DNA of 64,000 nucleotides from Clostridium sp. Lineage in GTDB: Bacteria > Bacillota > Clostridia > Clostridiales > Clostridiaceae. Positions 11,367 to 49,881 of the stretch are shown piece after piece. The stretch spans positions 124,001 to 188,000 of the forward strand of contig NZ_JAGHFX010000058.1 in assembly GCF_017888565.1 (NCBI RefSeq). The letters run 5' to 3'. How positions within the stretch are numbered: position 1 is the first letter of the stretch; each line of letters starts with the position of its first letter. The translations under genes and the position numbers were made by a program. The notes beneath the pieces were generated by a model. That model did not search any database. It saw only the letters and a list, made by a program, of their open reading frames with translations, and was not told where the DNA came from.

Positions 11367-11424
11367 ATTAACAAATATATGGAAATAAAAATTCTATGAA
11401 GAGAAAAAGTAAGTTATTATTTTG

Positions 11425-11667
11425 TTCAACAGAGAGTTGGTGTGTGCTGAAAGCCAATGTTCAAAAATTAGCTGAAAATCATCTCTGAGAAGCAATGCTG
11501 AACTTTAGTAGGTATTGCCGGAGTCTTTCACCGTTAAAAGATAGGCGTATTGTTAGATACGTAGCTAAGTGCTATAAAAGGTTTATTATATTTATAAACT
11601 AATTTTATAGAATTAGGGTGGTAACGCGGATATTTCCGTCCCTTGTTTTTCAAGGGACGGTTTTTTT
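11425..11667 (+). promoter_or_regulatory. T-box riboswitch, isoleucine-type specifier
   Basis: Transcription-attenuating leader that binds uncharged tRNA. Stem I closes through CAGAGA (11430-11435) with TCTCTG. The codon just before the closing strand, in GAAAATCATCTCTG, is ATC (11478-11480), reading tRNA-Ile. Stem II is GCAAT...ATTGC with the conserved AGTAGG, and a small CGG/CCG stem III follows. The antiterminator T-box sequence AGGGTGGTAACGCGG is at 11615-11629. Its TGGT pairs with the ACCA end of a tRNA having discriminator A. The terminator is CCGTCCCTTG/CAAGGGACGG plus seven T (11636-11667). An Ile specifier fits the downstream BrnQ. The specifier is assigned by pattern, not by a covariance model. 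Confidence 0.92.
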
Positions 11668-11757: not shown

Positions 11758-13104
11758 ATGAAAAATTTATCAAAAAGAGATTTATTATTTATAGGACTTA
11801 TGCTTTTTTCTTTATTTTTTGGGGCAGGAAATTTAATTTTTCCTCCGTTTATGGCTCAGGCAGCTGGGGAAAAAACTTGGATAGCTATGAGTGCATTTTT
11901 TATAACAGCAGTGGGATTTCCAGTATTAGGAGTGATAGCAGTAGCAAAATCTGGAGGATTGACTAATTTAGCAAAGAGAGTAAATCCAGTATTTGCAAGC
12001 ATATTTACTGTTTTAATATATTTATCAATTGGACCAGGACTTGGAATTCCAAGGGCAGGTAGTCTACCTTTTGAAATGGCAGTAGCGCCATATTTACCAG
12101 AAAGTATATCAATTAATATATCTTTATTTATATACACATTTTTATTTTTTACAGTTGCATATTGGCTTTCACTATCACCAAATAAATTAGTAGATCGTAT
12201 GGGGAAGGTATTAACTCCTACTTTATTACTTCTAATTTTAATTATGATAGTTGGATCACTAATAAAGCCGTTAGGTGGATATGGCGCTGCAACAAATGGT
12301 TATGAAATATCACCATTTTTTAAAGGATTTTTAGATGGGTATCTAACTATGGATACAATAGCAGCTTTAAATTTTGGAATAGTGATTGCTCTAGCAATAA
12401 AATCTAAAGGTATAAATGATGAAAAAACTGTAGTTTCTTTATCTATAAGGGCTGGATTAATTGCAGGGGGACTATTAGCAGTTATTTATGCATTACTTGC
12501 ACACCTAGGAGCAGCAAGTGGAGGAAGATTTGGATTAACTGAAAATGGAGCGCAAACATTAACAAATGTAACTAATTATATATTTGGGAAACCAGGTGCA
12601 ATATTACTTGCTTTAATATTTACTCTTGCTTGCTTAACAACGTGTGTTGGACTAATTACTTCATGTAGTCAATATTTTTCTACATTAACTAATAAAATAT
12701 CATATAAAAATTGGGTTAGAATATTAACTGTATCTAGTATGCTTCTGGCTAATATGGGATTAACAAAAATTCTTAGTATATCAGTACCTGTATTAAATGC
12801 AATTTATCCAATAGCTATAATGCTTATAGTACTTTCAATGTTAGATTTTATATTTAAAGAAGATCATTTAATTTATAGTTTAACAATTTTATTTACAGGA
12901 ATTGTTAGTATAATCGATGCATTGGGACAAGTTGGGATTAAAATAGGGTTTATTACAAAGTCTATTACTTTTTTACCTCTTTATAATGAAGGATTAGCAT
13001 GGATAACTCCAGCTATAGCAGGAATTGTTATAGGGTTATGTGTTAAATTTGTTAAAGAATTTTTAAAAGAAAATAAAATTTTTTCAGAAAAAATAAGTGA
13101 TTAG
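11758..13104 (+). CDS. brnQ: Branched-chain amino acid transporter BrnQ (LIVCS family), 448 aa
   Basis: Sodium- or proton-coupled symporter taking up leucine, isoleucine and valine. It has about twelve hydrophobic helices and the family N-terminal block GLMLFSLFFGAGNLIFPP. GIPRAGS follows near residue 95 and a cysteine-containing helix, ACLTTCVGLITSCSQYF, near 295. Length is typical for the family. RBS TTAGGGGGAA precedes the ATG. Expression is governed by the upstream T-box, so it should rise when tRNA-Ile is uncharged. A GGAGCTT/AAGTTCC hairpin with T-run follows. Confidence 0.95.
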   Translation: MKNLSKRDLLFIGLMLFSLFFGAGNLIFPPFMAQAAGEKTWIAMSAFFITAVGFPVLGVIAVAKSGGLTNLAKRVNPVFASIFTVLIYLSIGPGLGIPRAGSLPFEMAVAPYLPESISINISLFIYTFLFFTVAYWLSLSPNKLVDRMGKVLTPTLLLLILIMIVGSLIKPLGGYGAATNGYEISPFFKGFLDGYLTMDTIAALNFGIVIALAIKSKGINDEKTVVSLSIRAGLIAGGLLAVIYALLAHLGAASGGRFGLTENGAQTLTNVTNYIFGKPGAILLALIFTLACLTTCVGLITSCSQYFSTLTNKISYKNWVRILTVSSMLLANMGLTKILSISVPVLNAIYPIAIMLIVLSMLDFIFKEDHLIYSLTILFTGIVSIIDALGQVGIKIGFITKSITFLPLYNEGLAWITPAIAGIVIGLCVKFVKEFLKENKIFSEKISD

Positions 13105-16177: not shown

Positions 16178-21023
<4,846 letters not shown>

Positions 21024-22075: not shown

Positions 22076-22112
22076 TGAAATCGTTGACTGAATGTTTTAT
22101 TTTATATATAAT
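22076..22112 (+). promoter_or_regulatory. Promoter of the first GH84 gene with overlapping cre box
   Basis: -35 TTGACT (22084-22089), 17-nt spacer, -10 TATAAT (22107-22112). The -35 is part of TGAAATCGTTGACT (22076-22089), a cre box with only the last base off consensus. CcpA would compete directly with RNA polymerase. Confidence 0.82.
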
Positions 22113-22143
22113 GTAAAAGTAAGTTAAAATATGTTAAATTTTA

Positions 22144-22209
22144 GCGTGTAATCTAATTTAATTTAGAGCATTAGCTGGGAAGGGTAAGTGTACCTTTTCC
22201 AGTTTTTTT
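22144..22209 (+). promoter_or_regulatory. Conserved leader RNA element plus terminator (attenuator) of GH84 gene 1
   Basis: GCGTGTAATCTAATT and TTTAGAGCATTAGCTG (22144-22177) recur, at the same distance from the -10, before the second GH84 gene. They run straight into a 14-bp terminator stem, AGCTGGGAAGGGTA/TACCTTTTCCAGTT, with a 4-nt loop and a T-run (22173-22209), about 100 nt before the start codon. CTAAT and ATTAG inside the element can pair and would compete with the base of the terminator. It matches no riboswitch class I know. Confidence 0.7.
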
Positions 22210-22309
22210 ATTGTTAATATTGATAATTTAATAGGATTAACAATTATTTAATTGCTTAATATATATTAAATTACATTATTATATATTTTAAATTAAGGGG
22301 GATCAGATA

Positions 22310-25300
22310 GTGAGACTAAAAAGCAAAAAATTAAAAAGGCTAATAGCAAAGACTATGATGGTAATTATGTTATTTACATTATTACCCAATGTATTTACAT
22401 TAAAGGCTAAAGCTTTAGACGGAAATGAGGCAAAAAGTGAAGGGTATGAGATATATCCAATTCCTCAAAGTATTGAATATGGTGATGGTAATATAAATTT
22501 TCAAAATAAGGCAAATGTTATATTTGAAGATGGAATTGATGATGCAACTAAAAATAGGTTGTTTGAAGTATTGAATATTAAAGGTATTTCATACGAAGTA
22601 GGTACTGAAATAAAAAGTGATCAAACAAATTTTTTAGTAGGAATAAATAATTCTAAAGGTATTGTAGATAATTATTTTAATAATAAAAATTTAGGTGATG
22701 ATGCTCATTTTGAGAAAATAGATTCTCATATAGTGTCAGTAGATGATAATGTAATTGCAGTATTAGGTAAAGATACTGACTCAGCATTTTATGGGCTTAC
22801 ATCATTAAAATTAATATTTAAACAAATAGAAGGAAATGAAATAAGAGAATTATTAATTAAAGATTATTCAGATGGACATTGGAGAGGGTTTATAGAAGGA
22901 TATTATGGTATTCCTTGGAGTAATGAAAATCGTATGGATTTAATGAAGTTTGGTGGAGACTTTAAGATGAATGCATATATTTTTGCTCCGAAAGACGATG
23001 AATATCATAGCCTTAAATGGAGAGAGCCATATCCAGCAGAGAAGCTAGAAGAACTTAGACAATTAGCCGAGGTTGGAGCAAAAACAAAAAATAAATTTAT
23101 ATGGACAATTCACCCATTCTTAAAGGATGGAATGAAGTTCGATACTGATGAGAACTATCAAAGTGATTTATCAAAGATTATTGCAAAGTTTGAACAATTA
23201 TACAGTATAGGTGTTCGTCAATTTGGAGTACTTGCTGATGATGCTGAAGGAGAAGCAAAAGATCAAGTAAGACTTATGAATGATCTAGAACAATGGAGAT
23301 TATCAAAAGGTGATGTATATAGTTTCATTTTTGTTCCTAAGGTATATACAAAAGAGTCAGCAGGTGGAGATGTTAATAATGAATATTTAAGAACAATTTC
23401 TGGAATGCCTGAAAGTACTGAAATATTATGGACAGGTGATACTATACTTGGATATGTAAAGCAAGATAGCTTCGATTTCTTTAAAGAAGCAGTAGGAAGA
23501 GAACCTTTCATGTGGTTAAACTGGCCTGTAAATGATATTAATAATAGTCGTTTACTAATGGGTAAAGGTGAAATGTTAGATAAGGATGTTACAAACTTTA
23601 GAGGAATTGTAACTAATCCAATGCAAGAGGCACAAGCTTCAAAGGTATCTTTATTTGCAATTGCAGACTATGGTTGGAATCATGCAAGTTTTGATATGGA
23701 CAAGAGTTGGGAAGATTCATTTAAATATATTGAACCAGATGCAACTGAAGAATTGCACACATTTGCAAAACATATGAGTGATCCTGCTCCAACTTGGCAT
23801 GGATTAACATTAGAGGAATCAGAAGAATTAAGACCAATAATTCAAGATTTTACAAAGAAGTTATTTAGAAAAGAATCAATAGTAGAAGATAGTAAGATTG
23901 TTTTAGCAGAATATCAAGAGATTTTAGATGCAACTAATAACTTTGCACAAAAATCTAAAAATGAATTGATGAAAAATGAAATAAAGGCATGGGTTGACTC
24001 TCTAAGAGATTTATCTGAATCAACAATTGCATACGTTAATGCAGCACTTGCTTTAGAAGAAGGTAACTATGAAGAAGCTGTTAAGTATTATAGCTTAGGT
24101 GAAAGTGAATATACTTCTTCAAGAAGTTATAGAGTTCAAGGAATTAATGGACAAATTAGACCAGAACCAGGTAGTAGACACTTATTACCATTTGCGAAGG
24201 ATTTATCAAGAATAATTAGTGAAAAAATGGCTCAAGTAGTTAATCCAGATAGTAACAAGCTAACATTATTCCCTTATACCAATATGGGATACAACTTATA
24301 TTGGGGACATGTTCAAAATATAGTTGATGGAGACAATGCTAGATTATCAACTATGTGGATTCGTAGAGCTGCTAATGAAGATGACTATGTTGCTTTAGAA
24401 TTAAACGAAGTAACAGAGGTTAACAGCATTACATTTGAACAAGGTGAGCCAGGTGCTGGAGATAAATTTAACTTTGTTAAATTCCAATCTTCAATGGATG
24501 GAGAAAATTGGACCGATATAGATGGTGTTGCATATGGACCAGAAAAAGAAAAAATAGTTGTAGAAAACCTTAAAGTAAAAGCTAAATATGTAAGAGTTGT
24601 TCCAACAGGAGAAATCAAAAGTAACTGGATATCAGTTCGTGAATTCTCAATTAATAAAGAAGATGAGAGCAATTTATTTAGAGATGTTTATACAAATATA
24701 GAAGCTTTATCTAACAATAAAGTTAATATATTACCAGAAACAGCTATACTTGAAAATATAAATGATATTACATTAGCAGAAAATGAATATGTTGGTATTA
24801 AGTTAAACAAAATAAAAGAATTAAAAAATATTGTTGCTGAATACTCAAATAAAGATAATTTAACTTTAGAAACATCAATCAATGGGATTGAATGGACAGC
24901 TGTAGAAGACTTAAGTTCTAGTGTAAATGCACGTTATATTCGTATTATTAATAAAGGTAAAGAGTCAGTTAAAACTAATATTACAAAGTTAGAAATAGAA
25001 AATACAACTAATGATGTAACATTTGATGTTAGACCTGCAGCAGAAGCTAAGTTTGAACCAACTAATTTAATAGATGGCAAATTAAACACAGCATTTAAAC
25101 CTAATGTAAATGCGCCTAAAACAGGTCATTTAACATATTATATTTCTGATAACACAGAAATCAAGAAATTTACTGTATTACAAGATCCAACTACATTATC
25201 AAATGCAGCAGTATCTATAAGAACTGAAAATGGATGGAATAATATAGGGGAACTAAGTAAGAGTGTTAATGTATTTAATACATCACAATTCCAAAATGTA

Positions 25301-25840
25301 TTTGAAATAAAAATAGAATGGGATGGAATGGCTCCAACTCTAAATGAAATTGGAGTTTCAACAGTTGAAGAAAGTGTGAGTGTTAACAGAGAAGCATTGA
25401 TAGAAGCAATAGAAAAAGCAGAAAGTATGCTGAACTCAGATAAATACACTGAAGAATCAATAGCTAACCTAAAAGAAGTGCTAAATGCAGCAAAAGAAGT
25501 TATGATAAATGAAGATGCTACTCAAGAAGATATAGATAGAGCAGTAGAAGATTTAAACAAAGCAATATCTTCTTTAGTTGAAAAACCATCAGTTCCAGGT
25601 GAAGAAGAAAATCCTGGAGAGGATGGAAAACCAGGTGAAGATAATTCAGATAATGATAGTAATCAAGGGGAAGGTAGTAAACCACTTCCTCCAACAGATG
25701 ACGAAAATAGTAGTTCAGGAAAAGGTGATGGAAATTTACCTAATACAGGAGGAACATCACCAGTTATGGTTCTAGCAATTGGAGGAATTATTTTAATAGC
25801 TGGAGTAATAACATTGAGAAAAAAAGCTACAAATAATTAG
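22310..25840 (+). CDS. Cell-wall-anchored GH84 N-acetylhexosaminidase (NagH-like), 1176 aa
   Basis: Secreted family 84 glycosidase, the group of clostridial mu-toxin/hyaluronidases and NagJ-type beta-N-acetylglucosaminidases, acting on GlcNAc-containing host glycans by substrate-assisted catalysis. Signal peptide 1-36. N-terminal GH20b-like domain about 45-180. GH84 core about 190-480 with RGFIEGYYGIPW and the catalytic Asp pair in GVLADDAEG (about 307-309). A helical linker follows, a CBM32/F5-8C-type domain about 660-785, one or two weaker sandwich domains, a FIVAR-type helical module about 1025-1095, a charged spacer, and LPNTG at about 1142 followed by a membrane helix and RKKATNN. The start is GTG with AAGGGGGA seven nt upstream; no ATG gives a better signal peptide. 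Substrate specificity is not readable. It shares its promoter and leader type with the next gene. Confidence 0.92.
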   Translation: MRLKSKKLKRLIAKTMMVIMLFTLLPNVFTLKAKALDGNEAKSEGYEIYPIPQSIEYGDGNINFQNKANVIFEDGIDDATKNRLFEVLNIKGISYEVGTEIKSDQTNFLVGINNSKGIVDNYFNNKNLGDDAHFEKIDSHIVSVDDNVIAVLGKDTDSAFYGLTSLKLIFKQIEGNEIRELLIKDYSDGHWRGFIEGYYGIPWSNENRMDLMKFGGDFKMNAYIFAPKDDEYHSLKWREPYPAEKLEELRQLAEVGAKTKNKFIWTIHPFLKDGMKFDTDENYQSDLSKIIAKFEQLYSIGVRQFGVLADDAEGEAKDQVRLMNDLEQWRLSKGDVYSFIFVPKVYTKESAGGDVNNEYLRTISGMPESTEILWTGDTILGYVKQDSFDFFKEAVGREPFMWLNWPVNDINNSRLLMGKGEMLDKDVTNFRGIVTNPMQEAQASKVSLFAIADYGWNHASFDMDKSWEDSFKYIEPDATEELHTFAKHMSDPAPTWHGLTLEESEELRPIIQDFTKKLFRKESIVEDSKIVLAEYQEILDATNNFAQKSKNELMKNEIKAWVDSLRDLSESTIAYVNAALALEEGNYEEAVKYYSLGESEYTSSRSYRVQGINGQIRPEPGSRHLLPFAKDLSRIISEKMAQVVNPDSNKLTLFPYTNMGYNLYWGHVQNIVDGDNARLSTMWIRRAANEDDYVALELNEVTEVNSITFEQGEPGAGDKFNFVKFQSSMDGENWTDIDGVAYGPEKEKIVVENLKVKAKYVRVVPTGEIKSNWISVREFSINKEDESNLFRDVYTNIEALSNNKVNILPETAILENINDITLAENEYVGIKLNKIKELKNIVAEYSNKDNLTLETSINGIEWTAVEDLSSSVNARYIRIINKGKESVKTNITKLEIENTTNDVTFDVRPAAEAKFEPTNLIDGKLNTAFKPNVNAPKTGHLTYYISDNTEIKKFTVLQDPTTLSNAAVSIRTENGWNNIGELSKSVNVFNTSQFQNVFEIKIEWDGMAPTLNEIGVSTVEESVSVNREALIEAIEKAESMLNSDKYTEESIANLKEVLNAAKEVMINEDATQEDIDRAVEDLNKAISSLVEKPSVPGEEENPGEDGKPGEDNSDNDSNQGEGSKPLPPTDDENSSSGKGDGNLPNTGGTSPVMVLAIGGIILIAGVITLRKKATNN

Positions 25841-26024: not shown

Positions 26025-26061
26025 TGAAAGCGTTGACAAGTTGGATGAATGTATATATACT
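26025..26061 (+). promoter_or_regulatory. Promoter of the second GH84 gene with overlapping cre box
   Basis: -35 TTGACA (26033-26038), 17-nt spacer, -10 TATACT (26056-26061). TGAAAGCGTTGACA (26025-26038) is a full cre match that contains the -35. Confidence 0.85.
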
Positions 26062-26092
26062 GTAAATGAAAGTTAAATTATGTTTATTTTTG

Positions 26093-26200
26093 GCGTGTAA
26101 TCTAATTAAGTTTAGAGCATTAGCTGTGATAAAAATGTTTTGTTTATAATTATTATTTTGGTTGTAAATAAAATATCTTTTTATTGCAGCTTTTATTATT
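26093..26200 (+). promoter_or_regulatory. Conserved leader RNA element plus long hairpin of GH84 gene 2
   Basis: The same GCGTGTAATCTAATT and TTTAGAGCATTAGCTG element (26093-26126) starts 31 nt after the -10, exactly as in gene 1. It again runs into a 14-bp stem, here AGCTGTGATAAAAA/TTTTTATTGCAGCT (26122-26135/26178-26191). The 42-nt loop can itself pair (TTTTGTTTATAA with TTGTAAATAAAA), and TTTATTATTTT follows. The terminator function is weaker than in gene 1 but the arrangement is the same. Confidence 0.65.
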
Positions 26201-26245
26201 TTAATATAAAAATTTATAACAAAATACAAATGAAAGAGGGATAAA

Positions 26246-29200
26246 ATGTTAAAAGCAAAATTAAATTCTATTCTAGCAAAGGTAGTTGTAGCATCATTTA
26301 TATTTACAACAACTCCAACAACAGTTTTTGCAGATATGCTTAACGATCAAGGTAAGCAAATAGTTAAATTAAAAGTTGAAGCACCAAGGGTAAGCCCAAC
26401 ACCACAATTACTAGAATCATCAGGAGAAGGAGTAGTTTTATCTAATAAAGTAAACATAATTGGACAAGATAAGGCAGACAAAGATGCTGTAAGAGAACTA
26501 ATGGAATTTTTAAAAAAGTTAGGTCTTGAAGTAAATAATGAGTTTAGTGATGAATCAACAACGATAATAATCGGTGAAGATGATGATAACATAGAGGAAA
26601 TGAATAAATTCTTATCTGAAATTAATAAAGAAGGTGCAGAGTCCATTTCAGTTAATGAAGGATATGTACTTGCTGCAAACCCAAATAAAAATGGGGCTAT
26701 GACAATAGCTATAGAAGGTACTGATGAAGTTGGTACTTACTATGGAGTTAAAACTTTAAAGGAATTAGTGCTTAAAGAAAACAATCAAAATGTTATGCCT
26801 GAGGTTTATGTAAATGATTACCCAACTCAACATGTAAGAGCTATAGTTGAAGGGTTCTATGGAAATCCTTGGACACATCAAGATAGATTAGATCAATTTA
26901 GGTTTTATGGAGACAATAAATTAAATATGTATATATATGCTCCAAAGGATGATCCATATCATAGAGATAAATGGAGAGATCCATATCCACAAGAAGAAAT
27001 GGCAAGAATGCAAGAACTTATTAATACAGCTGCTGAAAATAAAGTTGATTTTGTATTTGCAATTTCTCCAGGTAAGGATATAGACATAAATTCAGAAGCA
27101 GATTATCAGGCACTTGTTGATAAGTGTGAGTCATTATATAACATGGGAGTTAGAAGTTTTTCTATCCTTTGGGATGATATATTTACAGATGATGGAGCAG
27201 GACAAGCTGCTATAATGAATAGATTTAATAAAGAATTTGTTAAGGCAAAAGGTGATGTTAAGCCGTTAATAACAGTTCCAACTCAATATTGGGGAACTTC
27301 AATGTTCACTGATGGACAAGTTAAACCTTATACAAAAGGATTTGCAGAAAATCTAGATACTGATATTGAAGTTATGTGGACTGGCGAAAATGTTATGTCT
27401 GAAACAGTAACTTTAGATGATGCAGAAAAAGTAAATAATTTATACAATAGAAAAATGCTTTTATGGTGGAATTATCCTGTTAGTGACTATAGAGTTGATA
27501 AGTTAGCTTTAGGACCAATATATAATTTAGGAAATGATTTAGATAGTAAAATTGGTGGATTTATTATGAATCCAATGGAGTTTGCAGAAGCATCAAAAAT
27601 AACTCTTCATACAGGGGCTGATTATGCTTGGAACACTGCAGCTTATAACCATGATAAAGCTTGGGATAATGCAATTTCAGATTTAGTTGGAGAAGAATTA
27701 AAAGAAAGCTTTAAAAAGTTTGCTGATCATAGTACAAGACTTGATACTGGTAGAGAAGATGCGCCAGAAATGAGGGCTATAATGGATTCTTTCTGGAATA
27801 AGGTTGATAATAAACAAATTCCAGCTACAGAACTTGAGAGTTTAAAATCAGGATTTGAAGCAATAAAATCAGCAGTATCAGAAACTCAATCTAAGTTATA
27901 TGCTGAAATGCTTGAAGAAGTAGCTCCACAACTTGAAAAACTTACTAATTATGCAGATGCAGCCTCTACAGCAGCAGATATGGTCATAGCAATGTTAAAA
28001 GGTGATAGTAAGCTATGGTGGGAATTAAAATCAAAGCTTTCTTTACAAATTGAAGTATTAGATGCATCAAAGGCAATAATATCTGAAAAGGTATTAGATG
28101 ACTTTATTAAACAAGCTAATATAAAGACAGACAATATGTATTTTGATGGTGTATTAAAGGAAGAAGTGAAAGCTTATAATTATCAAGCAACAACATCTGA
28201 TAATCTTTCACCACTAAAGTTTGATGAATGGTATAATGCTAAATCACCTTACGAACTTTCAAATATGTTTGATGGTAAACTAGATACTGCTTATAGATCA
28301 TCAGGAAATATTAAATCTGGAGATGAAGTAATAGTAGATTTAGGACAAGAAGAATATATTGAAAATATTTATATATTAATGGGAAGAACTTCAGAAGATA
28401 ATATGATTATGAATGGAAATCTTCAAATATCTAATGATGGAGTTGAATGGAAAACTGTAGTTGAAGGAAATACATTTAGAGAAGTATTTGAAGATGAAAT
28501 TAATGAGAAGGCTAGATATATTAAATATGTAGCAACAGAAGATCAAGAAAATCAATTATTCATAAGAGAGTTTATGGTAAATAAGAATACTAATAGCGGA
28601 GTTAAATCTAGCGTAGATACTAAGCTTTCTTATAGAAAGAGTATAGCTGATAAAAATGAAATCAATTCAGTTGTTGCAGAGGAAAAAGTTAAGTTAAAAA
28701 CTGGAGATACAGTTGAATTAGAGCTTCCAGAATTTAAGTTTATTACTGGAGTTAATGTAAATGGCAATGTAAATGGTAATGTTGAATATACAATAAATGG
28801 AATTGATTGGATTAAGCTAGGAGATAGTGAAACAATAAAATTAGATAAAGCACAAGTTGTAAAAGCAGTTAGATTTGTGGCAAATGAAAATAAAACAGTA
28901 AAGAATTTTAGCATGGATGTAGTGATTGAAGGAAGAGGAAGTCAATCAATTGAAACAAATAGAAAGGGTAGCGGAAATTATACAGATTTAAATGCTATTG
29001 TTGATGGAGACTTAGATTCAAGCTTTATTTCATCAGGTGCATTAAAAATTGGGGACTATTTCACTTTAGATTTAGGAGAAGTAACTAATGTAAGAAATAT
29101 TCAAATTATTGGGGATAGATCATTTGGTGGAGATAGAATCCGTGATGGTAAAGTTGAATATTCATTAGATGGAACAAATTGGACAGAAATATATACTGGT

Positions 29201-30133
29201 GGGATTTCTGAGCAATTTAGAATGCATGATTTAGATTTCAATGCTAAATATGTAAGAGTTACTGCAACAAAGGGTACTGATTCATGGGTTAGAATGTCTG
29301 ATTTCTCAGTTAATTCACCAGAAGCAGAGGTTATATTTGAATCAACTGCTAAACCATCTGACGATAATCATAGATTACCTAATTTAATGGATAACAATAT
29401 TCAAACTTCATATATACCATCTAGAGATCTTGCTAGTGGAGATAAGTTAGTTTACAACATATTTGATGGTGCTTTAGTAAATAAAGTTGAAATATTCCAA
29501 AGTGAAAAAACTATATCTAATGCTAAAGTTATTGCTAGAACATCAGATGATAGAAGAATAGAGCTTGGAACATTAGACAAAGGTTACAATATGTTTAATA
29601 TGGAAAAGGCAGAAGAAGTTATATCGATAACTCTAGAATTCCAAGAAGGATCTGGAAGGCCAGAAATATATGAAATAGTAACTGAAAACTTTAGTTTAGA
29701 AGCTATAAAAGAAGTTGCAAAAGCTAATTTAGCAAAGGCAAAAGAGTTATTAACAAACACTGAAGGTAAATCAAATGAAGTTATAGAAGCTTTAAAGGTA
29801 GCAGTAACTGAAGTTGAAACATTATTAATAGATGGTGGATCTAGAGAAGAAATATTCTTATCAAATAAAAAACTTGAATCTGCAATAAAAGATTTTACAG
29901 ATTATACTGAAGAATCTAAGCCAAATGAAAAACCAGAAGTTAAACCAGAAGAAAAGCCAGAAGAAAAGCCAGAAAATGGTGGTGGAGATACATCAAATGG
30001 TACAGAAGAGGATAAAAATAATAAACCAGGCAAGCTTCCTCAAACAGGTGGGCCATCAGGATTATCAACAATGCTTTTAGGAATTACATCACTACTTGGT
30101 GGAGTAGCAGTTTATAAAAGAAGAAGAAAATAA
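26246..30133 (+). CDS. Cell-wall-anchored GH84 hyaluronidase/hexosaminidase (NagH/NagJ-like), 1295 aa
   Basis: Second secreted GH84 enzyme. Signal peptide 1-30 (cleavage probably after VFA). N-terminal domain about 45-190, GH84 core about 195-490 with RAIVEGFYGNPWTHQDR and the catalytic pair in ILWDDIF (about 310-311). Helical region about 500-640. At least two CBM32/F5-8C-type domains lie at about 650-782 and about 905-1025, each with DGDLDSSF- or DGKLDTAY-type calcium/ligand loops. A third sandwich is at about 1030-1140, then a helical module, a Pro/Glu/Lys-rich wall spacer with PEEKPEEKPE, and LPQTGG near 1264 with a membrane helix and YKRRRK. RBS AAAGAGGG. It is more canonical than its upstream paralogue in active site and CBM content. 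Target: N-acetylglucosaminyl bonds of host mucin, glycoproteins or hyaluronan (family knowledge). Confidence 0.93.
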   Translation: MLKAKLNSILAKVVVASFIFTTTPTTVFADMLNDQGKQIVKLKVEAPRVSPTPQLLESSGEGVVLSNKVNIIGQDKADKDAVRELMEFLKKLGLEVNNEFSDESTTIIIGEDDDNIEEMNKFLSEINKEGAESISVNEGYVLAANPNKNGAMTIAIEGTDEVGTYYGVKTLKELVLKENNQNVMPEVYVNDYPTQHVRAIVEGFYGNPWTHQDRLDQFRFYGDNKLNMYIYAPKDDPYHRDKWRDPYPQEEMARMQELINTAAENKVDFVFAISPGKDIDINSEADYQALVDKCESLYNMGVRSFSILWDDIFTDDGAGQAAIMNRFNKEFVKAKGDVKPLITVPTQYWGTSMFTDGQVKPYTKGFAENLDTDIEVMWTGENVMSETVTLDDAEKVNNLYNRKMLLWWNYPVSDYRVDKLALGPIYNLGNDLDSKIGGFIMNPMEFAEASKITLHTGADYAWNTAAYNHDKAWDNAISDLVGEELKESFKKFADHSTRLDTGREDAPEMRAIMDSFWNKVDNKQIPATELESLKSGFEAIKSAVSETQSKLYAEMLEEVAPQLEKLTNYADAASTAADMVIAMLKGDSKLWWELKSKLSLQIEVLDASKAIISEKVLDDFIKQANIKTDNMYFDGVLKEEVKAYNYQATTSDNLSPLKFDEWYNAKSPYELSNMFDGKLDTAYRSSGNIKSGDEVIVDLGQEEYIENIYILMGRTSEDNMIMNGNLQISNDGVEWKTVVEGNTFREVFEDEINEKARYIKYVATEDQENQLFIREFMVNKNTNSGVKSSVDTKLSYRKSIADKNEINSVVAEEKVKLKTGDTVELELPEFKFITGVNVNGNVNGNVEYTINGIDWIKLGDSETIKLDKAQVVKAVRFVANENKTVKNFSMDVVIEGRGSQSIETNRKGSGNYTDLNAIVDGDLDSSFISSGALKIGDYFTLDLGEVTNVRNIQIIGDRSFGGDRIRDGKVEYSLDGTNWTEIYTGGISEQFRMHDLDFNAKYVRVTATKGTDSWVRMSDFSVNSPEAEVIFESTAKPSDDNHRLPNLMDNNIQTSYIPSRDLASGDKLVYNIFDGALVNKVEIFQSEKTISNAKVIARTSDDRRIELGTLDKGYNMFNMEKAEEVISITLEFQEGSGRPEIYEIVTENFSLEAIKEVAKANLAKAKELLTNTEGKSNEVIEALKVAVTEVETLLIDGGSREEIFLSNKKLESAIKDFTDYTEESKPNEKPEVKPEEKPEEKPENGGGDTSNGTEEDKNNKPGKLPQTGGPSGLSTMLLGITSLLGGVAVYKRRRK

Positions 30134-31752: not shown

Positions 31753-31790
31753 TGAAAACGTTGACCGATACAAATGGATTGTAGTATTAT
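31753..31790 (+). promoter_or_regulatory. Promoter of deoB with overlapping cre box
   Basis: -35 TTGACC (31761-31766), 18-nt spacer, -10 TATTAT (31785-31790). TGAAAACGTTGACC (31753-31766) is a cre box with the last base off consensus, placed over the -35 exactly as at the two GH84 promoters. Confidence 0.72.
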
Positions 31791-31823: not shown

Positions 31824-31956
31824 GTGATGTATTATGAATTTAAATATGCTATAATTTAACTAATTAAGTTTAAGATTAATTAATTGAATTATAACAAATA
31901 ATATATAATATATTATTTATAGTCTTAAATAAAGAAGCTTGGAAAGGAGTAATAAC

Positions 31957-49664: not shown

Positions 49665-49682
49665 ACGAATATAAATCAAGAA

Positions 49683-49860
49683 ATTCTCGTATATCATCGG
49701 TGATATGGACCGAAAGTTTCTACCTGCTAACCGTAAATAGGCAGACTACGAGGTATTGTATTTGAAAAAGAAATTATTGTAAATAGATTTGTAATATAAA
49801 TTTATGATTTGATTTCTATTTTTAAGACAACACCTCGATTACGAGGTGTTTTTTATTACT
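49683..49860 (+). promoter_or_regulatory. Purine riboswitch, guanine type
   Basis: P1 is CTCGTA with TACGAG (ending near 49753). The core has ATATGG, the GTTTCTACC J2/3, loops ACCGTAAA and TATGG-type kissing positions, and GACTACGAG at the end. The key J3/1 base is C (GACTAC), so the ligand is guanine or hypoxanthine rather than adenine (GATTAT). The terminator AACACCTCG/CGAGGTGTT plus T-run lies at 49829-49856. The P1 3' strand TACGAGGT can pair with ACACCTCG as antiterminator, giving a transcriptional OFF switch. Confidence 0.95.
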
Positions 49861-49881
49861 TAAACAATGGAGGATGAAGTC

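Follow-up and report, generated by a model that had tools for sequence, protein, structure and literature searches.

Two GH84 genes in the window, as we call the whole 64,000-nucleotide stretch of Clostridium DNA that was analysed, each carry in their leader a predicted hairpin that reads as a GlcT-type RAT. Import of GlcNAc would bring about antitermination by GlcT at this hairpin, and CcpA would act at cre-like sites; we put the probability of this reading at roughly 85%. What can be read from the sequence is the predicted hairpin with its compensatory changes, the overlap of this hairpin with the foot of the putative terminator, and its recurrence at nagE, glcT and glycosidase genes. The kind of switch is known and its regulatory setting is new; the element is real, looks functional and is mostly explained.

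Leaders of the two GH84 genes

The leaders of the first and second GH84 gene are designated w1 and w2, and all their features lie on the forward strand. The first gene (22310..25840, GTG start) encodes a beta-N-acetylglucosaminidase of 1176 aa with F5/8C and FIVAR domains, the second (26246..30133) one of 1295 aa with F5/8C domains and an LPXTG cell-wall anchor. Both proteins were assigned to GH84 by Pfam, and for both the best NCBIfam model was GlcNAcase, scoring under its cut-off. Sigma-70-type promoters were located at 22084..22112 (TTGACT-17-TATAAT) and 26033..26061 (TTGACA-17-TATACT), each with 11 of 12 hexamer matches and a 17-nt spacer. The −35 box is overlapped in both cases by a cre-like site for CcpA, at 22076..22089 with one mismatch and at 26025..26038 with none to the sequence TGWAANCGNTNWCA, which we take to be the cre consensus. 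Nine such matches were counted in the window against 2.6 expected. These predicted sites suggest that CcpA represses both GH84 promoters.

The positions 22107-22177 of w1 and 26056-26126 of w2 align without gaps and agree at exactly 62 of 71 bases, the figure that an earlier sequence-only reading had estimated by eye. The best 71-mer match between Markov-resampled versions of the intergenic pair averaged 41.7, with a maximum of 48 in 200 trials. That the surrounding intergenic DNA differs was also seen, the 71-nt blocks directly 5′ and 3′ of the pair, in the same register, being identical at 41/71 and 30/71 bases. Since the two GH84 proteins share only 25% identity, the likeness of their leaders does not simply reflect recent duplication of the whole gene.

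The element starts 31 nt past the −10 box in both leaders, as had been described. The RAT hairpin was delimited at 22143..22176 in w1 and 26092..26125 in w2. A filter-free scan of the window with R2, a covariance model built from 46 distinct copies, returned these two at 48.3 and 48.5 bits respectively, with a runner-up of 13.4 bits. Behind the RAT of w1 lies an intrinsic terminator (22173..22211) of 14 pairs and a T-run. The corresponding terminator-like hairpin of w2 (26122..26205) is longer, with 31 pairs and a 2-nt bulge between 26122 and 26191, and its T-rich tail is weaker than that of w1, giving a poor U-tract. The earlier description of a 14-bp stem in both leaders thus holds for w1 and not for w2.

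Structure and covariation of the hairpin

In its general form the RAT is a 34-nt hairpin of 11 pairs, with a lower stem R-G-C pairing with G-C-Y, a middle stem GUGU with GCAU and about four pairs in the upper stem; the left and the right side each carry one bulge of two bases. Its core can be written GUGU-N-AC...GGCAU. The copy in w1 consists of AGC/GCU, GUGU/GCAU, an AA bulge, UCUAA/UUAGA and a 6-nt loop. The second base of the left bulge is A in all 46 distinct copies, the first mostly A, and both bulges are flanked by strongly conserved letters, although the conservation of the right anchor is partly a selection artefact because the regular expression required it. The length between the anchors ranges from 9 to 18 nt. 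The 46 copies derive from alignment A3, in which 72 entries were reduced by 12 (11 false ones and L062), by 10 repeats of the same place and by four identical cores.

Pairing was found in 94.6% of 501 cells compared with 89.4% after shuffling, and 35 cells were doubly changed compared with 13.6; none of 500 shuffles reached either value. The numbers of pairs with a double change and of further pair types were not above the shuffles, 271 and 140 of 500 of which reached them. When the partner strand was slid by one to three columns, pairing fell to 24–39%. Of the 46 RATs, 25 have C-G and 16 have U-A as their first upper pair, which is broken in the other five; the third upper pair is A-U in 23, G-C in seven, G-U in seven, U-A in five and broken in four, and the outermost lower pair A-U in 23, G-U in 17, G-C in five and broken in one. 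Nine copies have a broken G-U pair in the middle stem. The compensatory changes, for which a test by covariance model had been proposed, support the predicted RAT pairing. An alternative fold between CTAAT and ATTAG, also proposed earlier, is not conserved, most relatives having stems of the UCAA/UUGA or CCGA type. Another hairpin just 5′ of the RAT (GUUAAA/UUUAGC in w1) is present in the minimum-energy folds of both leaders.

Predicted competition between RAT and terminator

The RAT of w1 ends at 22176 and the terminator stem begins at 22173, so that about the last three RAT bases are also part of the terminator foot (AGCU in w1); the foot of the w2 hairpin overlaps the 3′ strand of its RAT likewise. 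As predicted from sequence, the conserved competition is between the lower stem of the RAT, R-G-C with G-C-Y, and this foot. Unconstrained folding yielded the terminator in w1 (−27.4 kcal/mol), w2 (−34.8 kcal/mol) and the nagE leader of the same genome (−29.9 kcal/mol), and folding with the RAT enforced gave −19.9, −27.5 and −20.7 kcal/mol. Enforcing the RAT costs 7.3–9.2 kcal/mol in these three leaders, with loss of the lowest terminator pairs. A bound protein would pay this difference in folding energy, as in the model for the NagY RAT (PMC9981650, in the part available). With the RAT enforced w1 keeps the upper 10 pairs of its terminator and w2 most of its hairpin. Antitermination would therefore rest on the loss of the foot pairs. 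A run of at least five T was found within 52 nt in 43 of the 46 distinct RATs and is missing in L068, L072 and w2.

Occurrence across genomes

No third copy of the leader with at most three mismatches was found in the window or in its own genome, and at the same stringency the pattern matched only the window pair in 68 genomes of the genus and 206 of the family. The exact element pattern had no match in the GTDB contigs, and blastn against plasmid records gave four partial matches. Such letter-pattern searches missed divergent copies because they fixed stem letters that covary. A looser scan of the loci of GH84 relatives returned copies with 6–7 mismatches before GH84 genes in five other genomes, their stems altered yet still pairing.

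With another pattern 45 matches were obtained in the GTDB contigs. Ten of these, from other groups and at loci without a PTS, GlcT or GH84 relative, look like chance, nine of them having no T-run behind. Among the remaining 35 a PTS, GlcT or GH84 relative lies in the locus of 33, the exceptions being L115 and L143. Four of these 35 precede GH84 genes, in C. gallinarum, C. nigeriense, C. sartagoforme and C. tertium. Five are Paenibacillus loci, in two of which (L107 and L145) GCGTGTTACC...GGGCATGAGCC stands immediately 5′ of a glcT relative.

R1, a covariance model built from seven copies, had matches in 63 of 199 family genomes (E ≤0.05), the weakest of them partly chance; many of its matches of higher E-value were left out of the inspection of loci. 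R2 had matches in 84 of 200 Clostridiaceae genomes (E ≤0.01) at 124 places, which answers the question, raised by the sequence-only reading, of whether the element occurs beyond the window pair. Sorted by us, in some cases by a visual reading of how the ORF behind them begins, these places comprise 81 at glucose-superfamily PTS genes (permease, EIIA or glcT next), 14 at GH84, five at GH89, three at GH20 and four at GH3 genes, eight at mannose-type PTS genes, one before a PBP4B-like gene, two false ones and six that were unclassified (contig ends, uninspected loci or an apparent insertion sequence). The matches L081, L086, L088-L096, L245, L259 and L319 were rejected, being located inside ORFs or lacking a terminator.

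The hairpin before the mannose-type PTS genes of eight genomes (L284, L285, L293, L298, L305, L307, L314 and L318) is RAT-like and similar to GCGTGTTACTGATTCGATCAGGCATAAGC. It lies about 170–205 nt 5′ of the start codon with no terminator visible, and is perhaps a RAT acting another way. The EIIA-man/EIIB assignment was made by Pfam for L284 and by the same protein start for the other seven loci.

GlcT, nagE and the identity of the element

The genome to which the window belongs has seven RAT places, at nagE, four of five GH84 genes, one GH89 and one GH20 gene. On contig C77 the RAT precedes an EIIBC gene assigned to nagE by the GlcNAc-specific model TIGR01998 (629.7 bits, cut-off 553.2), with an EIIA gene upstream of the RAT on the opposite strand and glcT beyond it. 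This set of glcT, EIIA, RAT and PTS permease was found again in many relatives. The GlcT protein scored 324.8 bits with NF047357 (cut-off 320) and contains CAT_RBD and two PRD stretches. Among the seven CAT_RBD matches of the genome, we infer from its position that this GlcT is the reader of the RAT.

A score of at least 310 bits with the GlcT model was reached in 10 of 13 GH84-bearing genomes, in six of them above the cut-off of 320. Two of the 13, G006 and G043, have neither GlcT nor a convincing RAT (one-sided Fisher 0.038). In G059 and G005 the order is glcT-RAT-GH89, a GlcT-class gene standing directly 5′ of the RAT. C. gallinarum (G010, an assembly of about 140 contigs) carries a RAT before GH84 and no GlcT-model match above 247 bits, which counts against a strict link between GlcT and RAT; the reader in that species might be a different protein of the BglG family.

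The layout is that of a RAT, a hairpin with asymmetric bulges and a 3′ strand that doubles in part as the 5′ arm of a terminator. The element is termed a GlcT-type RAT because of the glcT and PTS neighbourhood and the lack of an Rfam match at gathering score. On these predicted features it is a RAT of this type, and we infer that it works as one. It is thus of the GlcT/NagY type, a known target of BglG-family antiterminators, whereas the sequence-only reading had known of no RAT with such a consensus. Its picture of a conserved, structured, attenuator-like leader answering a GlcNAc-related signal largely stands, the reader probably being an RNA-binding protein, and the element is not a new riboswitch class.

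The comparison with Rfam that had been suggested gave no family of Rfam 15 at gathering score for the element in the stretches tested, and a riboswitch reading was rejected on that result. With the two window leaders only a microRNA match of 13.7 bits was obtained at E ≤5. A further 24 loci gave two overlaps, both below gathering, with RF02555 in L006 (24.2 of 90 bits) and with RF02430, the Streptococcus sRNA SpF19, in L051. The latter match (1493-1573), the nearest in Rfam, spans RAT and terminator at 34.4 bits, under the gathering score of 60, and neither window leader matched SpF19 at E ≤5. By eye the SpF19 consensus is RAT-like, and this sRNA may be what termination leaves of the leader of a gene under RAT control. 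An ANTAR target, which consists of two hexaloop hairpins in tandem, was rejected in view of the single hairpin of the conserved element and its variable anchor spacing.

Putative glycosidase targets

A search with R2 at E ≤1 in the 13 GH84-bearing genomes of the genus gave 42 places in 12 genomes, 28 of which precede GH84 (17), GH89 (5), GH20 (5) or NagZ-like GH3 (1) genes. RATs thus occur at all three families, GH84, GH20 and GH89, before which it had been advised to look. The other 14 places are 10 PTS permeases, three false matches (L245, L259 and the one in G043) and one beside an apparent insertion sequence. Five matches had E-values from 0.02 to 0.42 and were kept as genuine on account of the secreted glycosidase behind them. 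A clear terminator is present in four (L241, L248, L253 and L261); the fifth, L246, is without one, as is the glycosidase RAT L249, and has perhaps decayed.

The 39 GH84 domains of these genomes correspond to 36 ORFs by our count from the open-frame column. A RAT lies within about 400 nt upstream of 17 of the 36, where about 0.007 would be expected by chance, and the other 19 have none. Five of six GH89 genes are preceded by a RAT. For GH20 there are five RAT loci among 49 matched pieces, which are pieces rather than genes, and most GH20 are without one. Four GH3 genes with a RAT were found family-wide (L249, L273, L283 and L320), all carrying KHFPGHGD..TDSH, presumably the mark of NagZ. The best NCBIfam model for these was beta-N-acetylhexosaminidase, with 181.2, 203.2, 212.9 and 175.3 bits respectively, its cut-off of 207 being passed by L283 only. 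The common theme of the RAT-bearing glycosidases, judged by family assignment, would be membership of families with GlcNAc-releasing members.

Some single loci may be mentioned. L295 (G112:C12:804411) has a RAT before a secreted PBP4B-like protein (NF002968, 475.8 bits), and the NagZ-like GH3 gene of L283 lies in the same genome; recovery of cell-wall sugars under the same switch is possible. At L244 (G059:C12:280905) the RAT and terminator are followed by an opposite-strand ORF, transposase-like by eye, that runs almost as far as the end of the contig; an insertion may have hit what was once a RAT target. The assembly shows a single stop codon inside the RAT-bearing GH84 gene at G059:C66:2882-5473.

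Proposed mechanism and alternative explanations

In the absence of GlcNAc, phosphorylation by the PTS would keep GlcT inactive and transcription would stop at the terminator. Import of GlcNAc by NagE would leave GlcT dephosphorylated, and unphosphorylated GlcT would then clamp the RAT, hinder the terminator and allow transcription of the glycosidase genes. The secreted enzymes would release more GlcNAc, closing a feed-forward loop. When preferred sugars are plentiful, CcpA bound at the cre sites that overlap the −35 boxes would shut both window promoters. The surface enzymes that release GlcNAc are probably co-switched with the GlcNAc importer. More broadly, we consider it likely that in mucin-degrading clostridia one GlcT runs a scattered regulon for GlcNAc harvest by RNA switches, covering the importer and surface enzymes of four unrelated families (GH84, GH89, GH20 and NagZ-like GH3), each gained by way of a RAT-terminator in its leader, with a second glcT beside GH89 in some species.

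It is improbable, though deserving of some weight, that the RAT is read by one or more other BglG-family antiterminators, such as a LicT-like paralogue, in response to another PTS sugar. The number of CAT_RBD proteins in the genome and the RAT of C. gallinarum without a GlcT-scoring protein would fit this explanation, and cross-talk within the BglG family is known. The RAT of the own nagE, however, lies near glcT and a GlcNAc permease, the glycosidase targets belong to families that contain N-acetylglucosaminidases, and the two of 13 genomes without a convincing RAT also lack GlcT. A small-molecule riboswitch, or a ligand-binding leader RNA of a new class, is hardly credible. The Rfam result and the strong conservation near the bulges would suit it, but the neighbourhood of glcT and PTS genes recurs across genera including Paenibacillus, the layout resembles that of described RATs, and the hairpin is small with a variable anchor spacing.

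The window pair might also have arisen merely by a recent copying of promoter and leader, with a terminator that acts constitutively and regulates nothing; we regard this as very unlikely. The counterparts of the window genes in G059, on separate contigs, are 69% (first gene) and 74% (second gene) identical to them. The leaders w1 and w2 (0.80 over 137 aligned bases) are closer to each other than to the leaders of these counterparts (0.75 for w1 and 0.71 for w2), and a cre site within one mismatch is present only in w1, w2 and nagE among nine leaders compared. Against a mere copy, the G059 counterparts keep the RAT with an altered yet paired stem, and the element is found before many unrelated genes. 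Copying may well have occurred, but it leaves the conservation elsewhere unexplained. These values suggest that, on top of the wider conservation, the promoter-RAT cassette was copied or converted locally in the lineage of the window; the suggestion is weak, because in AT-rich, gapped alignments other leader pairs also reach 0.66–0.81.

Relation to known systems

The GlcT-type RAT was described for ptsG of Bacillus subtilis. The Clostridium element shares with the GlcT-type RATs of ptsG/nagE loci, among which are those of Clostridium glcG and nagE, the core, the two small bulges, the 3′ end overlapping the terminator foot, a nearby glcT and a downstream PTS permease. Unlike these, it is also found at a distance from the PTS locus, as a putative switch for single genes that encode surface glycosidases. 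SacY-sacB and LicT-bglS of B. subtilis are known examples of secreted carbohydrate-active enzymes under RAT control; the sacB and bglS RATs concern other sugars and have other letters than the Clostridium case.

In C. acetobutylicum, putative and unverified RATs have been placed in the sucrose operon and upstream of glcG (PMC4706839, in part), and BglG-dependent read-through was demonstrated for the bgl operon (PMC12628678, in part). The RAT of the latter resembles ours in layout and in its GTTAC...GGC core, but its consensus GGATTGTTACTG-N6/7-CAGGCGAGACC has another lower stem and it concerns other sugars (PMC12628678, in part). A comparison by eye with this consensus indicates that our element has the GU-N-AC...GGC core of described RATs (PMC12628678, in part).

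According to the available part of PMC9981650, NagY of Enterococcus faecalis binds the leaders of nagY and hylA, and hylA expression requires nagY; HylA is an LPXTG-anchored polysaccharide lyase 8 with F5/8C and FIVAR domains. Our case would be like that of NagY in joining a GlcNAc PTS antiterminator to RATs at PTS genes, which in E. faecalis stand before nagY-nagE, and at a surface glycan-degrading enzyme, with the overlap at the terminator foot (PMC9981650, in part). The targets differ from hylA, being GH84, GH89, GH20 and GH3 genes in Clostridium, several per genome in some. This suggests that GlcNAc PTS antiterminators are tied to surface glycan-degrading enzymes in Enterococcus as well as in Clostridium, the enzymes being different.

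GH84 and GH89 genes have been described for mucin-degrading C. tertium and its kin, and terms for antitermination are absent from the accessible parts of the two papers (PMC10952124, PMC12641198). No study of a Clostridium GlcT-glycosidase regulon was found in the open-licence literature searched. The present reading names a regulator and a signal, both open to testing, for the surface enzymes by which gut clostridia such as C. tertium and kin may obtain GlcNAc from the mucin and glycosaminoglycans of the host. A small covariance model finds, genome by genome, an RNA switch that Rfam 15 misses at gathering score.

Other regulatory elements in the window

An exact cre-like site at 16229-16242 precedes genes for a PTS EIIBCA and a GH1 protein (16274-19535), and one with a single mismatch (31753-31766) lies between a minus-strand gene for a GntR-family regulator and the gene whose start is at 31939. 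A T-box leader (11387-11646) lies 5′ of the gene at 11758, which encodes a branched-chain amino-acid transporter, and a purine riboswitch (49667-49768) precedes the gene at 49867.
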